Assembly: GCF_001475545.1 (NCBI RefSeq)
Contig: NZ_LDQC01000076.1
Coordinates: 1-64,000, forward strand
DNA: 64,000 nt
From: Curtobacterium luteum
GTDB lineage: Bacteria > Actinomycetota > Actinomycetes > Actinomycetales > Microbacteriaceae
Direction of reading: 5' to 3'
This document shows positions 6,566-17,405 of this stretch, in pieces (positions within the stretch are counted from its first letter, which is position 1; each line of letters begins with the position of its first letter). The notes under the pieces are model-generated. The model had not been told where the DNA came from. It did not search any database and saw nothing but the letters and a program-made list of their open reading frames with translations. Position numbers and translations under genes: made by a program.

Positions 6566-8137
6566 TCAGCCCACGCGGCGGAACAGGGCCACGAACATCG
6601 CGTCGGTGCCGATCCGGTGCGGCCACAGCTGCGCGACCGGGCCGTCCGCGACCTGCGGGTCCCGAACCGCCACCGCCCGCAGGACGCCCGCGGTGTCGAG
6701 CTGTTCGAGCACACCGGGGTGCCGCTCGAGCACGGCGTCGACCTGCCCACGCGTCTCCGCGAGGTGCGGTGAACACGTGACGTAGGCCAGGGTGCCGCCC
6801 GGTGCGAGCACCCGCACGGCGGCGTCGAGCAGCTCGGCCTGGAGCGCGGCGAGTTCCGGGACGTCCTCGGGTTGCTTGCGCCACCGGGCCTCCGGGCGAC
6901 GCCGGAGCGCTCCGAGCCCGGTGCACGGCGCGTCGAGCAGCACGCGGTCGTACTGCACGCCCGCGCCGTCCCGACCGAAGCGCCGCCCGTCGCCCTCGAC
7001 GACGGTGACCCCGTCCCGGAAGCCCGCGAGGGCCTTCCGCACGAGCCCGGCCCGCGCCGGCACGAGTTCGTTCGCGACGAGGTGCGCTCCGCCGACCGCG
7101 GCTTCGGCGGCGAGCAGTGCCGCCTTGCCGCCGGGTCCGGCGCACATGTCGAGCCACCGCTCCCCCGCGCGCACCGCGGAGGAGCGGCTGAGCGCGAGGG
7201 CGGCGAGCTGCGAGCCCTCGTCCTGCACGCGGAGCCGTCCGGCGGCGACGCCCGGCACACGGGCGGGGTCGCCCGACACACCGCGGATGCCGGTCGGCGA
7301 GACCGGCTGCGTGTCCGCCTCGGACCGGACGGGAGGCACGGTGCCGGTCTCGGCGTCGGCCGTCGGCCCGTCACCGGCGCCGTCCACCGCGTCGGTCCGG
7401 TGGCCCGCCCCGTCTGTACCGTCCGCGGCGTCGGTTGCGTCATCGTGATCGGTGCGGTCCGCGTCGTCGGCGCTCGGCACCGGGGCGGTCGCCGTCGCGA
7501 TGTCGTCGTCCGTCGCGAGTCCGGGCAGCGCCGCGAGCTGGACGCGGGGTGCGACGTTGTCGGCCGCGAGGAGCGCGGCGAGTTCGTCCCTGGAGCGTTC
7601 GGCGGCGAGGGCGTCCCGCAGCGCCGACACGACCCACGTCGGGTGCGACCAACGCGTGGCGAGGAGCGCATCACCACCGCGGCCCTCGGTGATCGCGGCG
7701 TCCCACTCGGCGTCGGTCCGTGCCGCGACCTTCCGCAGCACGGCGTTGACGAAGCCGGTGGCGCGGCGGGCACCGACCTCGCGGGCGAGCTCGACCGTGG
7801 CGGACACCGCGGCGTGCGTCGGCGTGCGCATGCCGAGCAGCTGGTGGGTGCCGAGGCGCATCACGTCGAGGACGTCCGCCTCGATGTTCTCGACCCGGCG
7901 GCCGGAGGCGATGCCGACGATCGCGTCGTACCGGCCGAGCATCCGGATCGACCCGTAGGTGAGCTCGGTCGCGAAGGCGGCGTCGCGCGCGGACAGGCCG
8001 GCCCGGCGGATCCGCGACGGCAGGAGCAGGTTGGCGTACGCGTCGTCGACCTGCACCGCACGGAGCACGTCGTACGCCACGCGCCGAGCCGACGTCGGAC
8101 GCGGACCGCGGCTGCGCTGGGCCCCGGCGGCACTCAC
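6566..8137 (-). CDS. rsmB: 16S rRNA m5C methyltransferase RsmB
   Basis: RsmB methylates C967 of 16S rRNA. The 523-residue protein has an N-terminal NusB-like RNA-binding domain (about 15-150) and a C-terminal SAM methyltransferase with DMCAGPGGKAALL, the catalytic-cysteine motif DAPCTGLGALRRRPE and the second cysteine in VTCSPHLAETRG. Residues about 208-288 are an Asp/Thr/Ala-rich linker that is unusually long for the family and contains an embedded GACGGGAGGC half-repeat (residues 265-270, GTVPPV). The GTG start overlaps the fmt stop. Confidence 0.95.
   Translation of the reverse strand: MSAAGAQRSRGPRPTSARRVAYDVLRAVQVDDAYANLLLPSRIRRAGLSARDAAFATELTYGSIRMLGRYDAIVGIASGRRVENIEADVLDVMRLGTHQLLGMRTPTHAAVSATVELAREVGARRATGFVNAVLRKVAARTDAEWDAAITEGRGGDALLATRWSHPTWVVSALRDALAAERSRDELAALLAADNVAPRVQLAALPGLATDDDIATATAPVPSADDADRTDHDDATDAADGTDGAGHRTDAVDGAGDGPTADAETGTVPPVRSEADTQPVSPTGIRGVSGDPARVPGVAAGRLRVQDEGSQLAALALSRSSAVRAGERWLDMCAGPGGKAALLAAEAAVGGAHLVANELVPARAGLVRKALAGFRDGVTVVEGDGRRFGRDGAGVQYDRVLLDAPCTGLGALRRRPEARWRKQPEDVPELAALQAELLDAAVRVLAPGGTLAYVTCSPHLAETRGQVDAVLERHPGVLEQLDTAGVLRAVAVRDPQVADGPVAQLWPHRIGTDAMFVALFRRVG
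7327..7345 (+). repeat. GACGGGAGGC half-site inside rsmB
   Basis: GGACGGGAGGCACGGTGCC, a 19-nt exact match to the left arm of the 56341-56380 palindrome with its preceding G. Read on the minus strand it encodes GTVPPV in the rsmB linker. Confidence 0.7.
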
Positions 8138-9069
8138 GCGAGCTCCTTGCCGTCGAGCTGGCCGAGCCCGCGGGCCCAGGCCGCGGCGTCCATCGCCTTC
8201 TTGCCGGCGGGCTGCACCTCGGTGAGCGCGAGCGGGACGTCGGCCGTCCCGACCAGCAGCTGACCGTCGACCAGGGCGAGCGCGCCGGGGGCGAGATGCG
8301 GGGCGGAGGAGGGTGTGCCTCCCGGCAGGACGGAGCTGCGGAGCAGCTTCACGCGGGTGTCGCCGAGGTGGGCGAACGCGCCGGGCTCGGGCGTGACTCC
8401 GCGGATGCGGGCGTGGACGCTGACGGCGGGTTCGTCGAATCGGACGTGCGCGTCGTCGACGGTCGGCTTCGGGGCGAGGGTGACGTCACCGGACTGCTCG
8501 GTGGCGACCGCGGTGCCGGCCGCGAGGTCGTCGACCACCCGCGCGACGACCTCGGCTCCGGTCTCCGCCATGGCGGCGAGCACGTCGCCGCTCGTCGCGT
8601 CCGGATCGATGGTGAACGGCTCCGACGCGTAGACCGGGCCGGCGTCGAGCGCCTCGACGAGCTGGAAGACCGTCGCCGCCGTCTCGGTGTCGCCGGCCAT
8701 GACCGCGCGCTGCACGGGGGCGGCGCCGCGGTACGCCGGCAGGTCGGAGAAGTGGAGGTTGACCCATCCGAGCCGCGGGGTGTCGAGGGCCGGTCGGCGG
8801 AGCAGGGCGCGGTAGGCGACGATGACGCCGAGGTCGGGCGCGAGCGCGGCGAGCTCCGCCGTGACCGCGTCGTCGACCCGGGACGCCTCGATCACCGGCA
8901 GGCCGAGTTCCGCGGCGACCTGCGCGACCGGCGTCGGCGTCAGGACGCGCTTCCGCCCCTGCGGCGTCGCGGGACGGGTGAGGACCGCGACGATCTCGTG
9001 GTCGGACGCCGCGAGTCGGCGGAGGGTGGGGACGGCCGCAGCGGGGCTGCCGGCGACGACGAGACGCAT
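8134..9069 (-). CDS. fmt: Methionyl-tRNA formyltransferase
   Basis: Fmt formylates initiator Met-tRNA from 10-formyl-THF. The 311-residue protein starts RLVVAGSPAAAVPTL, carries the binding and catalytic segment NLHFSDLPAYRGAAPVQ and the VFQLVEALDAGPV loop, and has the C-terminal OB-like domain (LLRSSVLPGG to the end). An ATG at 9078 would add three residues. It overlaps rsmB by 4 nt. The deformylase gene def, often beside fmt, is not in the window; a helicase gene lies upstream instead. Confidence 0.95.
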   Translation of the reverse strand: MRLVVAGSPAAAVPTLRRLAASDHEIVAVLTRPATPQGRKRVLTPTPVAQVAAELGLPVIEASRVDDAVTAELAALAPDLGVIVAYRALLRRPALDTPRLGWVNLHFSDLPAYRGAAPVQRAVMAGDTETAATVFQLVEALDAGPVYASEPFTIDPDATSGDVLAAMAETGAEVVARVVDDLAAGTAVATEQSGDVTLAPKPTVDDAHVRFDEPAVSVHARIRGVTPEPGAFAHLGDTRVKLLRSSVLPGGTPSSAPHLAPGALALVDGQLLVGTADVPLALTEVQPAGKKAMDAAAWARGLGQLDGKELA

Positions 9070-9149
9070 GGGGTCCATCGTCCCACGGCTGCGCGGGCGG
9101 CCGTCACGGACGGGCGGTGCGGGCGGCCGGTCCCTTCCGCTCCGGTCCG

Positions 9150-12092
9150 TCACGACCACTGGTCGCGGAGCGTCGGCGGGGTCGAGGTGGCGCCGGAGTC
9201 GCGACGGGCCCGGAGGAGCAGGACGAGTGCCGCCGGTGAGTCGACCTCGTGCAGACGACACGGGCCGACCCTCCGTGCCCAGTCGGCAGCGAACGCCTCG
9301 GCGTCCTCGCGCCGGCGGCCGATGCCCGTCGGGACGGCGAGGAACCGGTCGCCGCGGGTGAGTCGGCGCGCGATCCAGAGCGCGACCCCGAGGAGCGGTG
9401 CCCGCCGGATCCGCGTCGCCTCGGGCCGACCGGTCTCGAGCAGGAACCTCGGGGTCCGGACGGGCCCGAAGAGCTCGGCGAGGGCGGCCGTGACGGTGCG
9501 GCGGTCGCCGACCGAGCCGCCGACGACCTCCATCGTGAAGGCGGCCGGCACCCGGCCCGCCCACCGTGCCGTGACGCGGACGTCCCCCTCGCCGTACGCG
9601 GGGATCCGGCCAGCTCGGTGCAGTCCGTCGAGGACGACCCGCACGGCTCGGCGGTACCCTCCGACGGAGTCGAAGCGCTGCCGAAGGGCCGTCCCGAGTC
9701 CGCGGGCGACCGGCCAGGCCAGGGTCACCGCGACGGCGACGAGCAGGACCGTCCCCACGACCCCGGCCACCGCTCCGGAACGCCAGGCTTCGACGAGGCC
9801 CCTGAGACCTTGGCCGACCACGACCAGCACGAGCGCGAGGACGGTGGCCATCACGGACGCGGCGGTGGGGCCGGTCGTGAACGGCGCCGCGTCCGGCTCC
9901 TGGACGACGGCGGCCGATCCCTCACGGTCGGCGTAGGGCTCGCCGATCCGCCAGGCAGCGTGGGTGTCGTCCCGGCTCGGCATCGCGGCCGCGATGTCCG
10001 CGTCGAGTGCGGCGACGGTCTGCCGGCGGTCCTTCGCGACGAGCCCGGCGAGCCGCAGCGCCTGCGCGTCGGTGAGGGCGGTGCCGGTGCCGCGGACCAC
10101 CTGGGCGTCGTCCGAGCGGAGCAACCCCCAGATCTGCTCGTGCTTGCGGTGGAGGCGGGCGACGTCGGGTGCGGCGAGCAGCGGCACGTCCGCCGGGACG
10201 ACGGCCGTCACGGTCCAGTTGTGCGCGACCTTGCGCGGCCAGGCGGGGTCGAGGCGGAGCGTCCGGCCGCGCAGCTGCTGGGTCGCCGCAGAGGTCGCCA
10301 CGGCGGTGAGGTCGATGAGCGTGTTGGCGGCCGGACAGTCCCACCCCTCGCCGAGGAGTCCGCGCGTCCCGACCACCAGGCGGGTGGTGGCGTCGGTCAG
10401 GAGCTCCGACACGGCGGAGAGCACCGCGGCCGAGCCGTACCCGCCGGCGTCGACCGCGAGCACGTGCGGTGCCTCCGCCACGGTCGTCGTCACCAGGCCG
10501 TCCCCGAGCCGCCGGCGGAGTGCCGGGAGCAGCACGTCCACGTCGCGTGCAGCGATGCGGAGGTGCTGCGCCGTGACGAGCACCGGGTGCATGTCGGCGA
10601 GCGCCGGGTCGGCGGTCACCGTGGCGAAGGTGCGCAGCGCACCGGCACCGTGTCCGCCGCGCCCCCGGGTGTTGCCGTGCGTGGCGTGGTCGGTGACGAC
10701 GACCGCCCGGAGGTGCTCGGCGGCGTCCTGACCGGCCTCGAGACGGAGGATCTCACCGACGGCCGTGTCCTTCGCAGCGGAGGACGCGAGCACGGTGTCG
10801 ATCGGGTCCCGACCGCGTCGGACACCCCGGTCGTTCAGGGTGAAGCCGAAGTCGACGATCGAGCGCTTGATGCGGAGCCACTGTTCGGCGCGAGCCGGGT
10901 CGGGCAGGAGCCGGTCGAGGGCGTAGCGGGCGAGGAGCCGCAGTCGCTGCTCGGCGTCGGGTGCGGTCCGGGCACCGCGGTGCAGCAGCCCGAGCACGGC
11001 GTGGTCCGGCCGGACCTCGGCGAGCATGCGGGCGGCGGACTCGGCAACCGCGAAGTCGGCGTCGAACGCGCGGGCGAGGCGCGCCTCCGGGCCCTCCGGA
11101 CCGGTTGACCCTGCGGGGTCGGCGGGCGGCTGGAGCGTCGCGACGAGCCACTCGGCACCGTCCGGGTCGTCGAACGTGCTCGCGACCAGCTCGGCCAGGC
11201 GTTCCTCGTGCCCGCGGAGGAAGGCCACCTCGTCCGCGGTGGGCTCGACGAACCAGACGTGGTCGCGGTACGGCGCGAGGTTGCCCTCCTTGACGACCGC
11301 CGGCGTCGGGACCTCGTGGTCGACCTCGCCGAGGAGCGCCGTGTAGTTGTCGTGCGCATCGCGGTCGTCCGGCGACGGGAGCGTCGCCGTGAGACCGATG
11401 AGCACCGGCTCCCGTCCGGCCTGGCGGATGCGTGCTGCGAGGTACGCGACGACGAGTGCCCAGTGGTCGAGCAGGTGGTGGCACTCGTCCAGGACGATGG
11501 TCTCGACACCGTGCGCGACGAGCCGGTCGACGAGTGCACGGGCGTTGGGATGGAGCACCGATGCGAGGAGCGCGGGGTCCTCGCGCGCGAGCCGGCGGCG
11601 GATCGCCCGGGAACGCCGGGCGATCCCCTTCCGGTGCGCGGTCGGGTTCGACCGTCCGAGGTCGGCGAGCCACTCTGCCGCGCCCTCCTCGTCGCGTCCG
11701 CCAGCGACGAGCTCGCGCTGCCAGTCCGCACTCGCAAGCTCGGTGAGCGGGTTGCCCGTCTCGAGCACCGACAGCATCTGGTAGGTCAGCGCCGTGAGGT
11801 CGCCGGGTGCCTCCGGGTCCTCCGAGACGGTCGCGTCGCCGTCGAGCGCCGCCGCCGACCGCGCCCACTGGGAGCGGATGGTGGCAGTCGGCGCGAGGGC
11901 CAGTGCGCGGGCGCCGTGCCGTCCGGCGAGCAGGAGTCCGAGGAGGGTCTTGCCGGCCCCTGGTGGCGCGACGACGTGGACGGGGTCGCCGGGCACGACG
12001 GGCACACGGTCGAGCACGTCCTGCTGGTACTTCCGCAGTCGCCCCTGGTACCGCCAGGCCACGAGCGGTCGGCCGTCGTCCCCCGTCGTCAC
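9150..12092 (-). CDS. Membrane-anchored SF2 (DEAD/DEAH-type) helicase, function unknown
   Basis: A 980-residue protein. Residues about 20-250 form a RecA-like domain with Walker A APPGAGKT (42-49), motif II DECH (202-205) and motif III TAT (235-237). Helicase domain 2 includes TRGLLGEGWDCPAAN (576-590) and QQLRGRTLR (605-613, motif VI). After it come two predicted membrane helices (about 746-763 and 773-795) and a roughly 170-residue C-terminal domain I do not recognise. The long insert about 280-560 is helical and also unassigned. The GTG start has CAGACT 6 nt upstream, so it may be leaderless. It interrupts the priA-fmt neighbourhood usual in relatives. The motifs predict an active ATPase; the substrate cannot be told. 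Confidence 0.85.
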   Translation of the reverse strand: MTTGDDGRPLVAWRYQGRLRKYQQDVLDRVPVVPGDPVHVVAPPGAGKTLLGLLLAGRHGARALALAPTATIRSQWARSAAALDGDATVSEDPEAPGDLTALTYQMLSVLETGNPLTELASADWQRELVAGGRDEEGAAEWLADLGRSNPTAHRKGIARRSRAIRRRLAREDPALLASVLHPNARALVDRLVAHGVETIVLDECHHLLDHWALVVAYLAARIRQAGREPVLIGLTATLPSPDDRDAHDNYTALLGEVDHEVPTPAVVKEGNLAPYRDHVWFVEPTADEVAFLRGHEERLAELVASTFDDPDGAEWLVATLQPPADPAGSTGPEGPEARLARAFDADFAVAESAARMLAEVRPDHAVLGLLHRGARTAPDAEQRLRLLARYALDRLLPDPARAEQWLRIKRSIVDFGFTLNDRGVRRGRDPIDTVLASSAAKDTAVGEILRLEAGQDAAEHLRAVVVTDHATHGNTRGRGGHGAGALRTFATVTADPALADMHPVLVTAQHLRIAARDVDVLLPALRRRLGDGLVTTTVAEAPHVLAVDAGGYGSAAVLSAVSELLTDATTRLVVGTRGLLGEGWDCPAANTLIDLTAVATSAATQQLRGRTLRLDPAWPRKVAHNWTVTAVVPADVPLLAAPDVARLHRKHEQIWGLLRSDDAQVVRGTGTALTDAQALRLAGLVAKDRRQTVAALDADIAAAMPSRDDTHAAWRIGEPYADREGSAAVVQEPDAAPFTTGPTAASVMATVLALVLVVVGQGLRGLVEAWRSGAVAGVVGTVLLVAVAVTLAWPVARGLGTALRQRFDSVGGYRRAVRVVLDGLHRAGRIPAYGEGDVRVTARWAGRVPAAFTMEVVGGSVGDRRTVTAALAELFGPVRTPRFLLETGRPEATRIRRAPLLGVALWIARRLTRGDRFLAVPTGIGRRREDAEAFAADWARRVGPCRLHEVDSPAALVLLLRARRDSGATSTPPTLRDQWS

Positions 12093-12237
12093 GGCACGAG
12101 TCTGCCACGGGGACGTGTCCGGTCCTGCACACAGAGCGGCCCCGCGACGCAGGGCACGTGTCCCGGCTGCGCGGGCATGGAACGGGTCGTCCACCCGGTG
12201 CGTACGGTCGGAGGCACGTCGATCCCAGGGAGGCACC

Positions 12238-12693
12238 ATGTCCGACGTCACCACGTCCACCGACCGCTACGCCGGCTCGAGCATCCAGAAGATCGCGCTC
12301 GTCGTCGGCATCGTGTTCCTGCTCGTCGGGGTCGCCGGGTTCGTCCCCGGGCTGACCACCGGCGACCTCGCCGGGGCCGGGCACGGTTCGATGGCGATGC
12401 TGCTCGGGGTCTTCCAGGTCTCGGTCCTGCACAACGTCGTGCACCTGCTGTTCGGCGTCGTGGGGCTCCTCGCGGCGCGCTACCCGACCGGCTCCCGGAT
12501 GTACCTCGTCATCGGCGGCATCGTGTACTTCGTCCTGTGGGTCTACGGGCTGTTCACCGCGGGCACGATGTCCGGCGCGAACTTCGTGCCGTTGAACTGG
12601 GCGGACAACTGGCTGCACCTCGTGCTCGCGATCGGCATGGTCGCGCTCGGGATCGTCTTCCCGCGCGGCCGCCGTCGCCCGGTCGGCGCCTGA
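12238..12693 (+). CDS. DUF4383 domain membrane protein
   Basis: A 151-residue protein with four predicted membrane helices (roughly 17-40, 55-80, 87-110, 125-145) and the sequences LHNVVHLLFGVVGL and NWADNWLHLVLAIGM characteristic of DUF4383, an uncharacterised family common in actinobacteria. A strong AGGGAGG ribosome site precedes the ATG. It is transcribed away from the helicase gene across a 145-bp gap and ends at a bidirectional hairpin facing kbl. The function is unknown. Confidence 0.9.
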   Translation: MSDVTTSTDRYAGSSIQKIALVVGIVFLLVGVAGFVPGLTTGDLAGAGHGSMAMLLGVFQVSVLHNVVHLLFGVVGLLAARYPTGSRMYLVIGGIVYFVLWVYGLFTAGTMSGANFVPLNWADNWLHLVLAIGMVALGIVFPRGRRRPVGA

Positions 12694-12723
12694 CGAGCGC
12701 CGCGCGCACCACGTACCATCCGC

Positions 12724-12758
12724 GACGGCCCCGGCAGCTCCTCGCTCCCGGGGCCGTC
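12724..12758. terminator. Bidirectional terminator between DUF4383 gene and kbl
   Basis: Inverted repeat GACGGCCCCGG ... CCGGGGCCGTC (11-bp stem, 13-nt loop) between two convergent genes. Confidence 0.75.
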
Positions 12759-12770
12759 ACACGACCGGGG

Positions 12771-13955
12771 TCAGTCGCCCTCGACCGACGCGCGCGCCGC
12801 CACGAACGCGTCCACGCACCGCCGCACCTGCTCCTCGGTGTGCGCCGCCGAGAGCTGCACCCGGATGCGCGCCTTCCCCTTCGGCACCACGGGGTAGCTG
12901 AACGCCGTCACGTAGACGCCCCGCGCCTGCATCTCGTCGGCGATCCGCGCCGTGCGGGCGGCGTCGTGGAACATCACGGGGACGATCGGGTGCTCCCCCG
13001 GCAGCAGCTCGAAGCCGGCGTCGGTCATGAGCGACCGGAAGGTCCGCGCGTTCGCGGCGAGCCGGGCGCGGGCGTCGTCCGACCGCTCGACGAGGTCGAG
13101 CGCCGCGACGGTCCCCGCGGCGATCACCGGGGCGAGGGAGTTCGAGAACAGGTACGGCCGGGACCGCTGGCGGAGCAGGTCGACGATCTCCCGTCGGGAC
13201 GCCACGTAGCCGCCGGAGGCACCGCCGAGCGCCTTGCCGAACGTCCCTGTGTACACGTCGACCCGGTCGGCGACCCCGCAGAGCTCCGGGGTCCCCCGTC
13301 CGTGCTCCCCGACGAACCCCACCGCGTGCGAGTCGTCCACGATGACGAGCGCGTCGTACCGCTCGGCGAGGTCGCAGATCTCGGCGAGCGGCGCGATCGA
13401 CCCGTCCATCGAGAAGACGCCGTCGGTGACCACCGCACGGAAGCGTGCCGACGAGGCGGCGGCGAGCTGCGCCTCCAGGTCGGCCGTGTCCCGGTTCCGG
13501 TACCGGAACCGCTGCGCCTTGCAGAGGCGGATGCCGTCGATGATCGACGCGTGGTTCAGCTCGTCCGAGATGATCGCGTCCTCGGGTCCGAGCAGCACCT
13601 CGAAGAGGCCGCCGTTCGCGTCGAAGCACGACGAGTACAGGATCGCCGCCTCGGTGCCGAGGAACCCCGCCACCCGCCGTTCGAGGTCGAGGTGGAGGTC
13701 CTGCGTGCCGCAGATGAACCGCACGCTCGCCATCCCGTACCCCCAGCGGTCGAGGGCGTCCTTCGCCGCGTCCACGAGGTCCGTCGAGTCCGCGAGCCCG
13801 AGGTAGTTGTTCGCGCAGAAGTTCAGCAGGTCGGTGCCGTCCGCCTCGATCGCCGCTCGCTGCGGACCGGCGATGCCGCGCTCCCGCTTCGTCAGCCCCG
13901 CGTCCTCGATGCCCGCGAGCTCCGTCGCCAGGTGGTCCTTGATCGCGCCGTACAT
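12771..13955 (-). CDS. kbl: Glycine C-acetyltransferase (2-amino-3-ketobutyrate CoA ligase)
   Basis: Kbl cleaves 2-amino-3-ketobutyrate with CoA to glycine and acetyl-CoA, the second step of threonine breakdown. The 394-residue PLP enzyme shows [22 protein letters not shown], the pyridine-binding DDSHAVGF and the PLP-lysine segment [14 protein letters not shown]. The ATG overlaps the tdh stop by one base (TGATG), so the two are coupled. Length is close to the E. coli enzyme. Confidence 0.96.
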
Positions 13956-15007
13956 CAGTGCTCCGTCCAGTCGATGACGACCTTGCCGCCGTCCGCGCTC
14001 GCCGCCGCGGCGAACGCTGCCTCCCAGTCGCGCGCCGGGTAGCGCGCCGACACGATCGAGCCGATGCGGTCCCGCAGCACCGCACTCGTCTGCAGCATCG
14101 AGCTCATCGCCTGCCACGTCTCGAACATCTCGCGGCCGTAGATGCCCTTCACGGTGAGCATGTGCGTGACGACCTTGCCCCAGTCGACCGCGATCGGACC
14201 GCTCGGCAGTCCGAGCATCGCGATCCGCCCGCCGTGGTTCATGTTCTCGACGAGTGCGGGCAGTGCAGTCGGCGCCCCGGACATCTCGAAGCCGACGTCG
14301 AAGCCCTCGCGCATGCCGAGCCGCCCCTGCGCTGCCCGGAGCGCGGCGACCCCGTCGCCGCGGACGTCCACACCGAGGTCGGCGCCCATCCGCTCCGCCA
14401 TCCGGAGCCGGTTCGGACTGACGTCCGTGCCGACGACGAACCGAGCACCGGCGTGCCGCGCGACCGCGATCGCCATGAGCCCGATCGGGCCGCACCCGGC
14501 CACCACGACGTCCTCGCCCACGAGCGGGAACGCGAGCGCGGTGTGGACCGCGTTGCCGAGCGGGTCGAAGAGCGCACCGACCTCGGGCTCGACGGGGCCG
14601 TGGTGCACCCACACGTTCGTGCCCGGCAGCGTGAGGTACTCCGCGAACGCGCCGTCGCGCTGCACCCCGAGTCCCTTCGTCCGGATGCACATCTGCCGGC
14701 GCCCGGCCCGGCAGTTCCGACAGGTCCCGCAGACGATGTGGCCCTCACCGGAGACGAGGTCCCCGATGCCGACGTCCCGCACGGCCGCACCGACCTCGAC
14801 GACCTCGCCGAAGAACTCGTGCCCGGGGACGAGCGGGGCGGTCACCGCCGACGCCGCCCAGTCGTCCCACCGCTGGATGTGCAGGTCCGTGCCGCAGATC
14901 CCGGTGCGGAGGACCCGGATGAGGACCTCGTCCTCCGTCGGTTCCGGCACCGGCCGGTCGGTCATGGTCAGACCCGGACCCGCGTCCGGCTTGTAGAGCG
15001 CCCGCAT
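13955..15007 (-). CDS. tdh: L-threonine 3-dehydrogenase
   Basis: Tdh oxidises threonine to 2-amino-3-ketobutyrate with NAD+. It is a 350-residue zinc MDR dehydrogenase: catalytic zinc ligands in [14 protein letters not shown] and VPGHEF, four structural-zinc cysteines in [15 protein letters not shown], and the NAD loop [21 protein letters not shown] and [13 protein letters not shown] are typical of Tdh rather than other MDR enzymes. A GAGGTGACGCC ribosome site precedes the ATG. With kbl it forms a two-gene catabolic operon lying between priA and the helicase gene. Confidence 0.95.
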
Positions 15008-15228
15008 CGGCGTCACCTCGTCACTTCGTCGTGCGTGTGATGTGTTCGGCGGTGGTTCGTGGCCACCGTCGTCCAGCCTCCCACAGGTCGGCCCGGGCGG
15101 GCTGCGCGGCACGGGGCGCTCGTCGTGCACCGACCGGGAGGCACGGCTCGGCCCCGCCACGTACGGCGCGCCCCTCGGTGGGCCGGAACCCGCGGGGCGC
15201 GGCGAGCGGACGGCGACGTGCACGGAGC
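15008..15228. other. Intergenic region upstream of tdh, no gene seen
   Basis: First part of the 415-bp gap between tdh and priA. It should hold the tdh promoter (no convincing -10 found), a single CCGGGAGGCACGG half-site at about 15134-15146, and the start of the GACGGC-rich repeats. No frame on either strand has a ribosome site or recognisable product. Confidence 0.55.
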
Positions 15229-15392
15229 GACGGCGCCGATCGTTGCGCGTGCAAGGAGCGACGGCGCCGCTGTCGTACGACGACGGACGGGTCGTTCGAC
15301 AGCGGCGGACGACGGCACCGATCGTTGCGCGTGCAAGGAGCGACGGCGCCGTTGTCGCACGACGACGGACGGGTCGTTCGGCAGCGGTGGCA
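15229..15392. repeat. Tandem 82-bp repeat between priA and tdh
   Basis: Two head-to-tail copies (15229-15310 and 15311-15392) differing at only a handful of positions, preceded by a partial third. Each begins GACGGCRCCGATCGTTGCGC and contains an inverted repeat. In copy 1, CCGCTGTCGTACGAC pairs with GTCGTTCGACAGCGG around the loop GACGGACGG. A diverged relative sits at 6411-6540. It is downstream of priA and may act as a terminator; no open frame looks real. Confidence 0.75.
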
Positions 15393-15422
15393 CGCGCTGC
15401 CTGGCGTCCGGGGCCGCGCGGG

Positions 15423-17405
15423 TCAGACCTCGGTGAACGGCTCGGCGTCGTCGAGCCGCACGCGCAGGGTCGGCGCCGCGCGGCGACGGTTGCCGCCCGG
15501 GAGCACCCGCCGTGTCGACGAGCGCCGGATCACCTCGGCCTTGAGCGTCGCCGCGACCTCCGCACCGTGCGCGTACGGGAACCGCACGATCGCCCGGACG
15601 GTTCCGGGCACCGGGTCGCCCTCGACGGGCACCGGGCCGAGGACCGGACCGACCGTCGCGTCGCCGAGGGCCTCGACCGCCGCGGTCACGGCCTCGTCCG
15701 TCCCGGTCAGCGTCGCGACCCGTACCGCCGGCGGGAAGTGCAGCTCGCGCCGGTCCGCCAGCTCGTCGTGCGCCGGCCCGTCGAGCCGCCACGTCGCCAT
15801 CGCCGTCGCGAGTCGTCCGCCGATGCCGACCAGGTAGACCTCGGCGCCGGGTGCACCCTTCGCCGCGGCGTTCGTCCAGAACCGCAGGACGTCCTCCTGC
15901 ACCCGGAGCCCCTCGCGCGCGAGCAGCCGCTCGCCGTCGAGGAGCAGCACGCAGGCGTACCCGCCGGGCACGCTCGGTTCCGCGCCTCGGGTCGCGACGA
16001 CCACCGCGGGGCGGGCCGGGACCTCGTCGAGCGGCCGGGAGCCGTCGGCGACCACGATCCTCGTGCCGGGGAACGCACGACCGAGCTCGTCGGCGGTGCG
16101 CTGGGCCCCCTGCCCGACGGGCTTGAGCTTCCCGCCGCCGCACGTCGGGCAGCGGAACCCGACGGCGAGGGCACCGCAGAACCGGCACTGCGGCGTCGCG
16201 TTCCGGTGCGGGCTGCCGAGCGGTCCCCCGCACACCCGGCAGTGGGCACGCTCACCGCAGTCGGCGCAGACGAGCCCGGTGCCGAAGCCCGGGTTCGCGA
16301 CCTGGACCAGCACCGGGCCGTGCTGGCTGGCCTCGCGGGCGGCCCGCCACGCGGTGCTCGGGATCCGGGCCTGCGCGGCGAAGCCCTCGGCGCTCGCCTG
16401 CTGCGCCGTCGGGACCACCTTCGGCGTCGGCACCCGGTACGGTGCGACCTCCTGCAGCCAGTGGAGCTCGACGAGCCGCTGCACGTCCGTCGAACGGGCG
16501 TGTGCCAGGAACAGCAGCGCGGCGCCGGACTGCGCGGCCCGGACGAGCGCGACGTCCCGGCTGTGCACGTACGGCGCCCGGGGCTCGATGAACGAGGCGT
16601 CCCCGTCGTCCCACATCGCGATGAGCCCGAGCTCGGTCGCCGGCGCGAACACCGCCGTGCGGTTGCCGATCGCGACCACCGCGTGGGTGCGGGCCTGCAG
16701 CAGTGCCTTCGCCCGCTGGCCGTTCGTCTGCTTGGCGTCGAACCGGACGACCCGTTCGGACGGCAGCAGGGCGAGCAGGGCACGTTCGAGGTCGGTCACG
16801 TCCCGGAAGTCCGGCACGGCGAGCACCGCAGACTCCTCGCGAGCGATGACCTGGGACGCCGCCTGCGCGAGCGTCGCGGCCCAGCCGGGGACCCAGACGG
16901 GTTCGTCGGCGGAGCCGAGGTCGACGGGGTGGGGGACGGCGTCGACCGCAGCCCGACCGTGGGCGGCGAGCAGTGCCTCCAGGACGCCCTCGGCGTAGCC
17001 GGTGACGGGGGTGGGCTCGACCGTCGGCGGCGACCACGAGGTGTCGCGGGCCAGCCAGGCCTTCTCGGCCCGCACCTGACGGGTCGGTACGGCGAGCCGG
17101 AGCACGTCGGAGGCCACGCCCGCGGCACGGTCGGCGACGGCGCGCGCGAGCGTCCAGATCTCCGGCGCGAGGACCGGCACCGGGGAGAGGACCTCCTCGA
17201 CCTGGCTCAGTTCCCCGGGCCAGTCTCCCTCGGAGACGACCTCGACGACGTACGCGTCGGACATCCGGGCGCCGGTCCGGAGCGGTACCTTCACGCGCAC
17301 CCCGGGCACGCAGTCGTCCTCGAGCTCGCTCGGCACCCGGTAGTCGAACAGACGGTCCAACTGCGGGAGCGGCGAGTCGAGGACGACGCGCGCGACGGTG
17401 GTCAC
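15423..17405 (-). CDS. priA: PriA-like primosomal protein N', helicase-inactive form
   Basis: PriA restarts stalled replication forks. This 660-residue version keeps the N-terminal DNA-binding fold, the zinc-binding cysteine pairs ([15 protein letters not shown] and [18 protein letters not shown]) and the C-terminal domain. It lacks the Walker A GKT, and the DEAH box is replaced by WDDGD. Loss of ATPase motifs is known for actinobacterial PriA, so it is likely a structural primosome factor. The GTG start lies 9 nt after the metK stop, as in the pyrF-mihF-gmk-rpoZ-metK-priA order of relatives. Confidence 0.93.

Follow-up and report, generated by a model that had tools for sequence, protein, structure and literature searches.

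XPB and Hef are helicases that act on DNA. To the protein studied here, XPB/RAD25/SSL2 is the closest motor by sequence and by structure, and the present protein differs from it by its hairpin and C-terminal domain. The Hef/FANCM and RIG-I-like families may share the core fold of the protein; theirs, too, is an SF2 core that carries a helical insert, placed between the RecA domains or inside one of them. The present protein differs from them: Pfam lists neither a nuclease nor a CARD nor the C-terminal family of RIG-I, and a hydrophobic hairpin is found instead. RadD, a bacterial SF2 accessory helicase, has an XPB-like core and is not known to have a hairpin or tail of the present kind. To our knowledge, membrane-fixed SF2 motors have scarcely been described.

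An SF2 motor in an optional gene is also a feature of Zorya, Hachiman, Druantia and other defense systems. The present gene, in contrast, has no PADLOC match at E ≤ 0.001 and no family-wide partner gene. Wadjet (JetABCD) is a near neighbor of the gene in one genus, designated g7, on either side of the operon, and the present protein is none of its four subunits. In searches of the open full-text literature, outside of which most subscription papers lie, none of the titles and abstracts listed dealt with a protein of this kind.

The window (the whole stretch of 64,000 nucleotides analyzed, from Curtobacterium luteum) contains a gene whose product may be an optional DNA translocase, tethered to the membrane, with a tail that serves recognition and with foreign DNA as its most likely target. 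The probability of this whole statement is put at roughly 0.42; the anatomy alone is firmer.

Gene and domain organization

The features of the gene and its flanks are as follows.

9150..12092, minus strand: whole gene (P0001), 980 aa, GTG start; from reading frame, homologue alignment and dN/dS
9951..12092, minus strand: SF2 motor region, residues 1-714, two RecA-like domains with inserts
11946..11966, minus strand: motif I (Walker A) PPGAGKT, residues 43-49
11475..11489, minus strand: motif II DECHH, residues 202-206
11382..11390, minus strand: motif III TAT, residues 235-237
10734..11237, minus strand: insert between the RecA domains, mostly helical, residues 286-453; from model secondary structure
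10323..10370, minus strand: motif V GTRGLLGEGWDCPAAN, residues 575-590
10254..10277, minus strand: motif VI QLRGRTLR, residues 606-613 (QQLRGRTLR from 605)
9672..9869, minus strand: predicted helical hairpin, residues 742-807, hydrophobic cores 745-763 and 774-792; from hydropathy and model
9153..9668, minus strand: predicted C-terminal alpha/beta domain, residues 809-980; from model and fold searches
8134..9069, minus strand: fmt, downstream flank of the variable site, 80 bp past the gene
12238..12693, plus strand: DUF4383 gene, divergent upstream flank (family named in the preliminary description)

The frame, its coordinates and the GTG start were borne out, and the start aligns with the same start in the other Curtobacterium copies shown. 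Relatives are encoded at 79 loci of a genome_contigs scan (best 80 of 83 found). The alignment consists of the window's copy and 53 of these loci; near-duplicates and broken or short frames were omitted, and a few N-terminally short rows stay. Motifs I, II, III, V and VI, previously described as intact, are invariant or at least 90% conserved in these 54 members. Invariant are D202, E203, H205, H206, T235, T237 and GEGWDCPA (581-588), and likewise Q606, G609, R610 and R613. The Walker A residues are conserved to at least 90% and not invariant, with some rows lacking the N-terminus. The protein is a putative ATPase. Whole-gene dN/dS against seven Curtobacterium copies is 0.18-0.33, and the gene is under purifying selection in this genus.

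AlphaFold2 on the 54-row alignment gave a mean pLDDT of 90.4 and a pTM of 0.87. The model contains two RecA domains, the helical insert (286-453), a pair of helices at the hairpin (742-772 and 775-807) and, beginning at residue 809, an alpha/beta domain. Scanned with Pfam, the window's copy gave partial DEAD/ResIII matches alone above the cut-off, and its full architecture is matched by no single Pfam, NCBIfam or PADLOC model.

Similarity of the motor to known helicases

Archaeal XPB was the best match in the PDB sequence search (1.1e-18), with RadD at 2.4e-7. Structural re-ranking (DALI-like) placed XPB in TFIIH first (Z 19.3, 379 residues, 3.9 Å) and also retrieved Hef (Z 18.2, 398 residues, 6.4 Å) and RadD (Z 15.1); the structural matches of the motor span residues 2-704. 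Judged by sequence and model, the motor is of the XPB/Hef-like end of SF2. In plain Foldseek, XPB (5.2e-11), RIG-I/MDA5 (2.7e-10) and Hef rank close together, and Dicer helicases are also among the best matches. Since RIG-I/MDA5 are placed so near XPB, DNA as the substrate is not secure. The Foldseek viral search retrieved generic helicases.

An XPB orthologue was considered and rejected. For the window's copy, NCBIfam listed only XPB and Hef, both far below their cut-offs: the repair_heli_XPB equivalog scored 23.1 bits against a cut-off of 610, and a separate, true XPB is encoded in the window's genome (845.7 bits). Pfam has a C-terminal helicase family of the XPB type; none specific to XPB was among the six Pfam families listed up to E 10, where weak matches may be filtered. 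The Mtb XPB is described as a 3'-5' DNA helicase, and bacterial XPB is reported to be without the C-terminal domain of eukaryotic XPB (PMC3353954).

These similarities bear on the strongest rival explanation, an accessory DNA-repair or chromosome-maintenance helicase. According to it, a paralogue of XPB or RadD would work on the cell's own DNA, and the hairpin would merely park the protein at the membrane. The motor is indeed closest to XPB by both sequence and structure, and RadD also matches. The gene is, furthermore, chromosomal, with a fixed place in most Actinomyces, and it lies beside the housekeeping gene proS or, in Curtobacterium and Leucobacter, beside priA/fmt. However, the genome already has its true XPB, the gene is patchy and has been lost in places, and a membrane tether has no obvious purpose in repair. 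A repair function is considered rather unlikely, even if it is the strongest competitor of a role against foreign DNA.

C-terminal domain

The preliminary description ended the protein with a domain of about 170 residues, which was found again from about residue 809, without a Pfam or clear PDB match. No Pfam family was found in the tail of the window's copy at E ≤ 0.05, and at the same threshold the tails of the 54 members gave three stray families, in one member each. Predicted alone, the tail reached a pLDDT of 87.5. A Foldseek search of the region against the PDB, a fold search of the kind first envisaged for it, returned no match at E ≤ 0.001. The best re-ranked match was Ohr (Z 5.9 over 67 residues), which was read as noise and rejected as the tail fold. 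The tail (dN/dS 0.17-0.39) is about as constrained as the motor (0.18-0.28) among the Curtobacterium copies.

The tail profile matched 19 of 248 genomes of the order (E ≤ 0.001), and no standalone tail was seen among these matches. In 15 of the 16 that were fetched, tail and motor share a single frame; the sixteenth is split into two. The remaining three of the 19 are the window itself, a full-length match (G643) and a match near a contig start (G731). The two-frame gene (L152:7082-9982, in one Microbacteriaceae genome) is likely a broken copy or a sequencing error.

A faint likeness of the tail to RRM- and ferredoxin-like folds, at noise level, would fit an RNA helicase that handles RNA or ribonucleoprotein at the membrane, as would the presence of RIG-I, MDA5 and Dicer among the best Foldseek matches. 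Such a function is nevertheless improbable: XPB and Hef lead the DALI-like re-ranking, beyond whose list other families may still lie, and none of the C-terminal matches rises above noise.

Two-helix hairpin

The two hydrophobic helices reported after helicase domain 2 in the preliminary description were recovered as a hairpin (745-763 and 774-792), for which a membrane anchor is the likely prediction. In the window's copy, the best 19-residue Kyte-Doolittle means are 2.21 and 2.51, and the helices are long enough to span a membrane. In 41 of the 54 rows, the segment between motor and tail reaches 1.6 or more as a 19-residue mean, and in 40 of those 41 this is higher than anywhere in the motor region of the same protein. 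The majority-residue fraction over the 54 rows is 0.34 for the hairpin, 0.45 for the C-terminal domain and 0.59-0.68 for the RecA parts; a value as low as that of the hairpin is otherwise reached only by the final 15 residues (0.33). Among the domains compared, the hairpin is thus the least conserved, with its hydrophobicity retained, and hence it behaves like an anchor. Its dN/dS among the Curtobacterium copies is 0.17-0.90.

Nine Actinomyces members have no hairpin and keep the tail. They form one clade in a tree built without the hairpin columns, in which the hairpin-bearing A. bovis adjoins them (support 84). The tail is also kept without the hairpin in three distant members, two from Enterococcus (L098, L103) and one from Gastranaerophilales (L099). 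With twelve members that do without it and keep the tail, the hairpin does not form the protein's core. Hairpins of weak hydrophobicity occur in some Microbacterium-type members (L058, borderline at 1.58; L056, 1.71; L071, 1.72), and the one of Leeuwenhoekiella is strong (2.33 and 2.21). Among 16 further loci, 13 have a hairpin at the corresponding place, as judged by position. The other three are the broken copy L152, which also shows a hairpin-like segment, and L154 and L155, which repeat the Actinomyces loci L075 and L086. As the stretch is hydrophobic in 41 of 54 members and absent from the Actinomyces clade, a membrane tether is probably common in the family yet dispensable. The location of the protein at the membrane, as well as its topology, is predicted.

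Alternatively, the hairpin could lie outside the membrane, as a hydrophobic dimerization or packing element of a soluble protein. The members without a hairpin and the few weak Microbacterium-type ones would agree with this, but low conservation combined with kept hydrophobicity, strong even in Leeuwenhoekiella, does not, which makes a soluble element quite improbable.

Distribution and gene turnover at the priA-fmt site

Relatives were found in Curtobacterium, Frigoribacterium, Microbacterium, Leucobacter, Pseudoclavibacter and Actinomyces. More distant ones come from Frankiales, Chloroflexi, Enterococcus, an Oscillospiraceae bin, Leeuwenhoekiella and Verrucomicrobia, as well as in Gastranaerophilales, Gracilibacteria and Proteobacteria-like bins. 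At E ≤ 1e-30, and including the window's own genome, the gene is present in 7 of 299 Microbacteriaceae genomes and in 4 of 296 genomes across the phylum; in a whole-genome search, 6 of 36 Curtobacterium genomes carry it. The gene is rare, unstable and scattered over several phyla. A housekeeping helicase was rejected on the Microbacteriaceae count, the 19 of 248 genomes of the order and the separate XPB.

One pattern scan of viral_contigs contained no relative, and weak partial matches were found in 2 of 72,556 plasmid records and 2 of 50,697 phage records. Cargo of a mobile element was rejected on these results. A typical defense gene is expected to match plasmid and phage records more often, and so few and partial matches are unlike one.

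In Curtobacterium, the priA-fmt interval (8134-17405 in the window; L112-L141 and L184-L214) is a small variable site. The variable stretch noted earlier was borne out, as the genomes differ there in tdh-kbl, DUF4383 and the helicase gene. A match to fmt was obtained in 59 of 60 Curtobacterium genomes, and in 8 of the 59 (5 of 30 loci of a first set and 3 of 29 of the remainder) the gene lies directly upstream of fmt, between DUF4383 and fmt. In an fmt-rsmB tree of 30 loci from Curtobacterium, explaining the five carriers takes five changes, which is not below the number for shuffled labels. In L113, a close relative without the gene, the last eleven codons with the stop and the upstream flank remain, a remnant read as a deletion scar; such a scar is present in one of 25 empty sites. 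Frigoribacterium L105 has a decayed copy in two pieces, matching at the nucleotide level around residues 97-173 and 914-971, and its relative L036 has the whole gene at that place. The scar and the decayed copy indicate loss in two lineages; gain by transfer may also have taken place. In Leucobacter, priA ends just before the gene in one locus (L039), and in another (L041) the gene is followed by fmt-rsmB. This shared location suggests that the priA-fmt position may go back a long way in this bacterial family.

Other genes were also seen in the interval. By eye from the translations, two genomes (G653 and G021) have sugar-transport-like genes there, and G025 shares one open frame with them. 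One Curtobacterium genome has an open frame of 1115 residues between priA and DUF4383 (L193:1017-4364) without a PADLOC match at 1e-8; by eye, we take its N-terminal part to resemble nuclease-type defense proteins.

Neighboring genes

Clade-specific neighbors are shared, but none recurs throughout the family, and a conserved operon partner was rejected. The clade-specific neighbors are priA-fmt (Curtobacterium, Leucobacter), MoxR-DUF58-TgpA (one Microbacterium group), a class-II tRNA synthetase (Actinomyces) and Wadjet (g7). The Actinomyces neighbor was called proS by its Pfam class-II synthetase domains, and its place is fixed in most Actinomyces loci. Gene calls in the neighborhoods come from a simple script and are approximate. 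In the Microbacterium group (L042-L084), the gene overlaps or adjoins the MoxR-DUF58-TgpA operon on either side, depending on the species. In two Actinomyces species, it appears inverted in place between the same flanks (L080 and L086/L155, the latter two being one locus, compared with L076).

Seven carriers of the order sample belong to g7. JetA is present in six of them, with the gene within ~14 kb of it, and the seventh has no JetA match. In two carriers, the gene is 39-45 bp from JetA of the Wadjet operon; in four, it is on the JetD side, 1.2, 2.1, 2.2 and 8.0 kb past JetD, with an MFS gene between. In three non-carriers (L174, L176 and L177), the Wadjet locus and its flanks are the same, but the gene is missing. 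The gene tree places the JetA-side and JetD-side arrangements in different groups, both of them supported. Given the two sides of the MoxR operon, a non-defense operon, in Microbacterium and the inversion in some Actinomyces, a local move could explain both Wadjet positions, which may thus derive from one insertion. The proximity to Wadjet in g7 is suggestive. With the g7 Jet proteins as queries, Jet genes were found in 5 of 96 sequences, made up of 95 loci plus the window; a sixth case lies shortly outside its locus. At the genome level, JetA is present in 12 of 19 carriers and in 89 of 229 genomes without the gene; at p=0.051, with no correction for relatedness, the association is weak, and six of the 12 JetA-positive carriers belong to g7. 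The window's own genome has JetA on another contig (G000 contig C202 16547-17962), not near the helicase.

For the window's copy, PADLOC 2.0.0 (2023) gave no family at E ≤ 0.001, the best being PbeA (E 0.0044). A set of 111 proteins encoded near the gene in 13 distant loci matched 13 PADLOC families at 1e-5. Some of these matches come from L107 and L095. Of the 132 Pfam families of this set, 25 were listed, and they are mostly metabolic. A second set, 123 of 244 neighbor proteins, deliberately left out six g7 loci near Wadjet, along with others, and matched 71 PADLOC families at 1e-10; each of the 25 listed was hit in a single protein. Its GajB/RTasHel matches trace to a UvrD-like protein in L166, a HerA/mad8 match is in L060, and PDC-S01, SWIM_XIII, PDC-S48 and mad3 were matched as well. 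Outside g7, defense-like genes near the helicase are sporadic, as counted without a random-region baseline.

Proposed function

The optional translocase proposed here would be an ATP-driven nucleic-acid translocase, most likely acting on double-stranded DNA. The hairpin would hold it at the inner face of the cytoplasmic membrane, with both the motor and the C-terminal domain in the cytoplasm. The latter, which to date is found only in fusion with this motor, would recognize a target or a partner. The most likely task is accessory immunity against foreign or extrachromosomal DNA, in which the motor would engage DNA near the membrane and strip, remodel or block it, alone or helping, for example, Wadjet.

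This proposal draws on what was computed: the motifs, the fold class, the hydrophobicity of the hairpin and its absence from a clade, purifying selection, loss at a fixed site and Wadjet proximity in g7. From these, we infer DNA as the substrate and defense as the role. Gene turnover and the proximity to Wadjet in one genus lend some support to a guard role against foreign DNA, and the repeated loss of the gene in close relatives fits an optional, defense-like function. Against defense stand the missing family-wide neighbor and PADLOC family, the sporadic defense genes outside g7, the weak JetA association and the metabolic genes that the Curtobacterium site also holds. A more specific version would make the protein a new class of bacterial guard: an immune translocase encoded by one gene and tethered to the membrane, where it would catch DNA that is incoming or circular and, in some genera, feed Wadjet, with an undescribed C-terminal sensor. 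This version is doubtful and offered tentatively. A DNA uptake route, in which the membrane motor pulls in incoming DNA, would suit the predicted hairpin and translocase motor but is very unlikely, as no competence gene was noticed among the neighbors with listed families (seen without a dedicated search) and a core component of uptake would be neither so rare nor so scattered.

The putative membrane-tethered translocase represents a definable family across several phyla, whose full architecture, as scanned in the window's copy, has no single-model match in Pfam, NCBIfam or PADLOC. Natural variants that have lost the hairpin and kept the tail, together with the loss of the gene in close relatives, make the roles of tether and tail directly testable. 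If the link to Wadjet is true, the protein would add a motor to anti-plasmid immunity.
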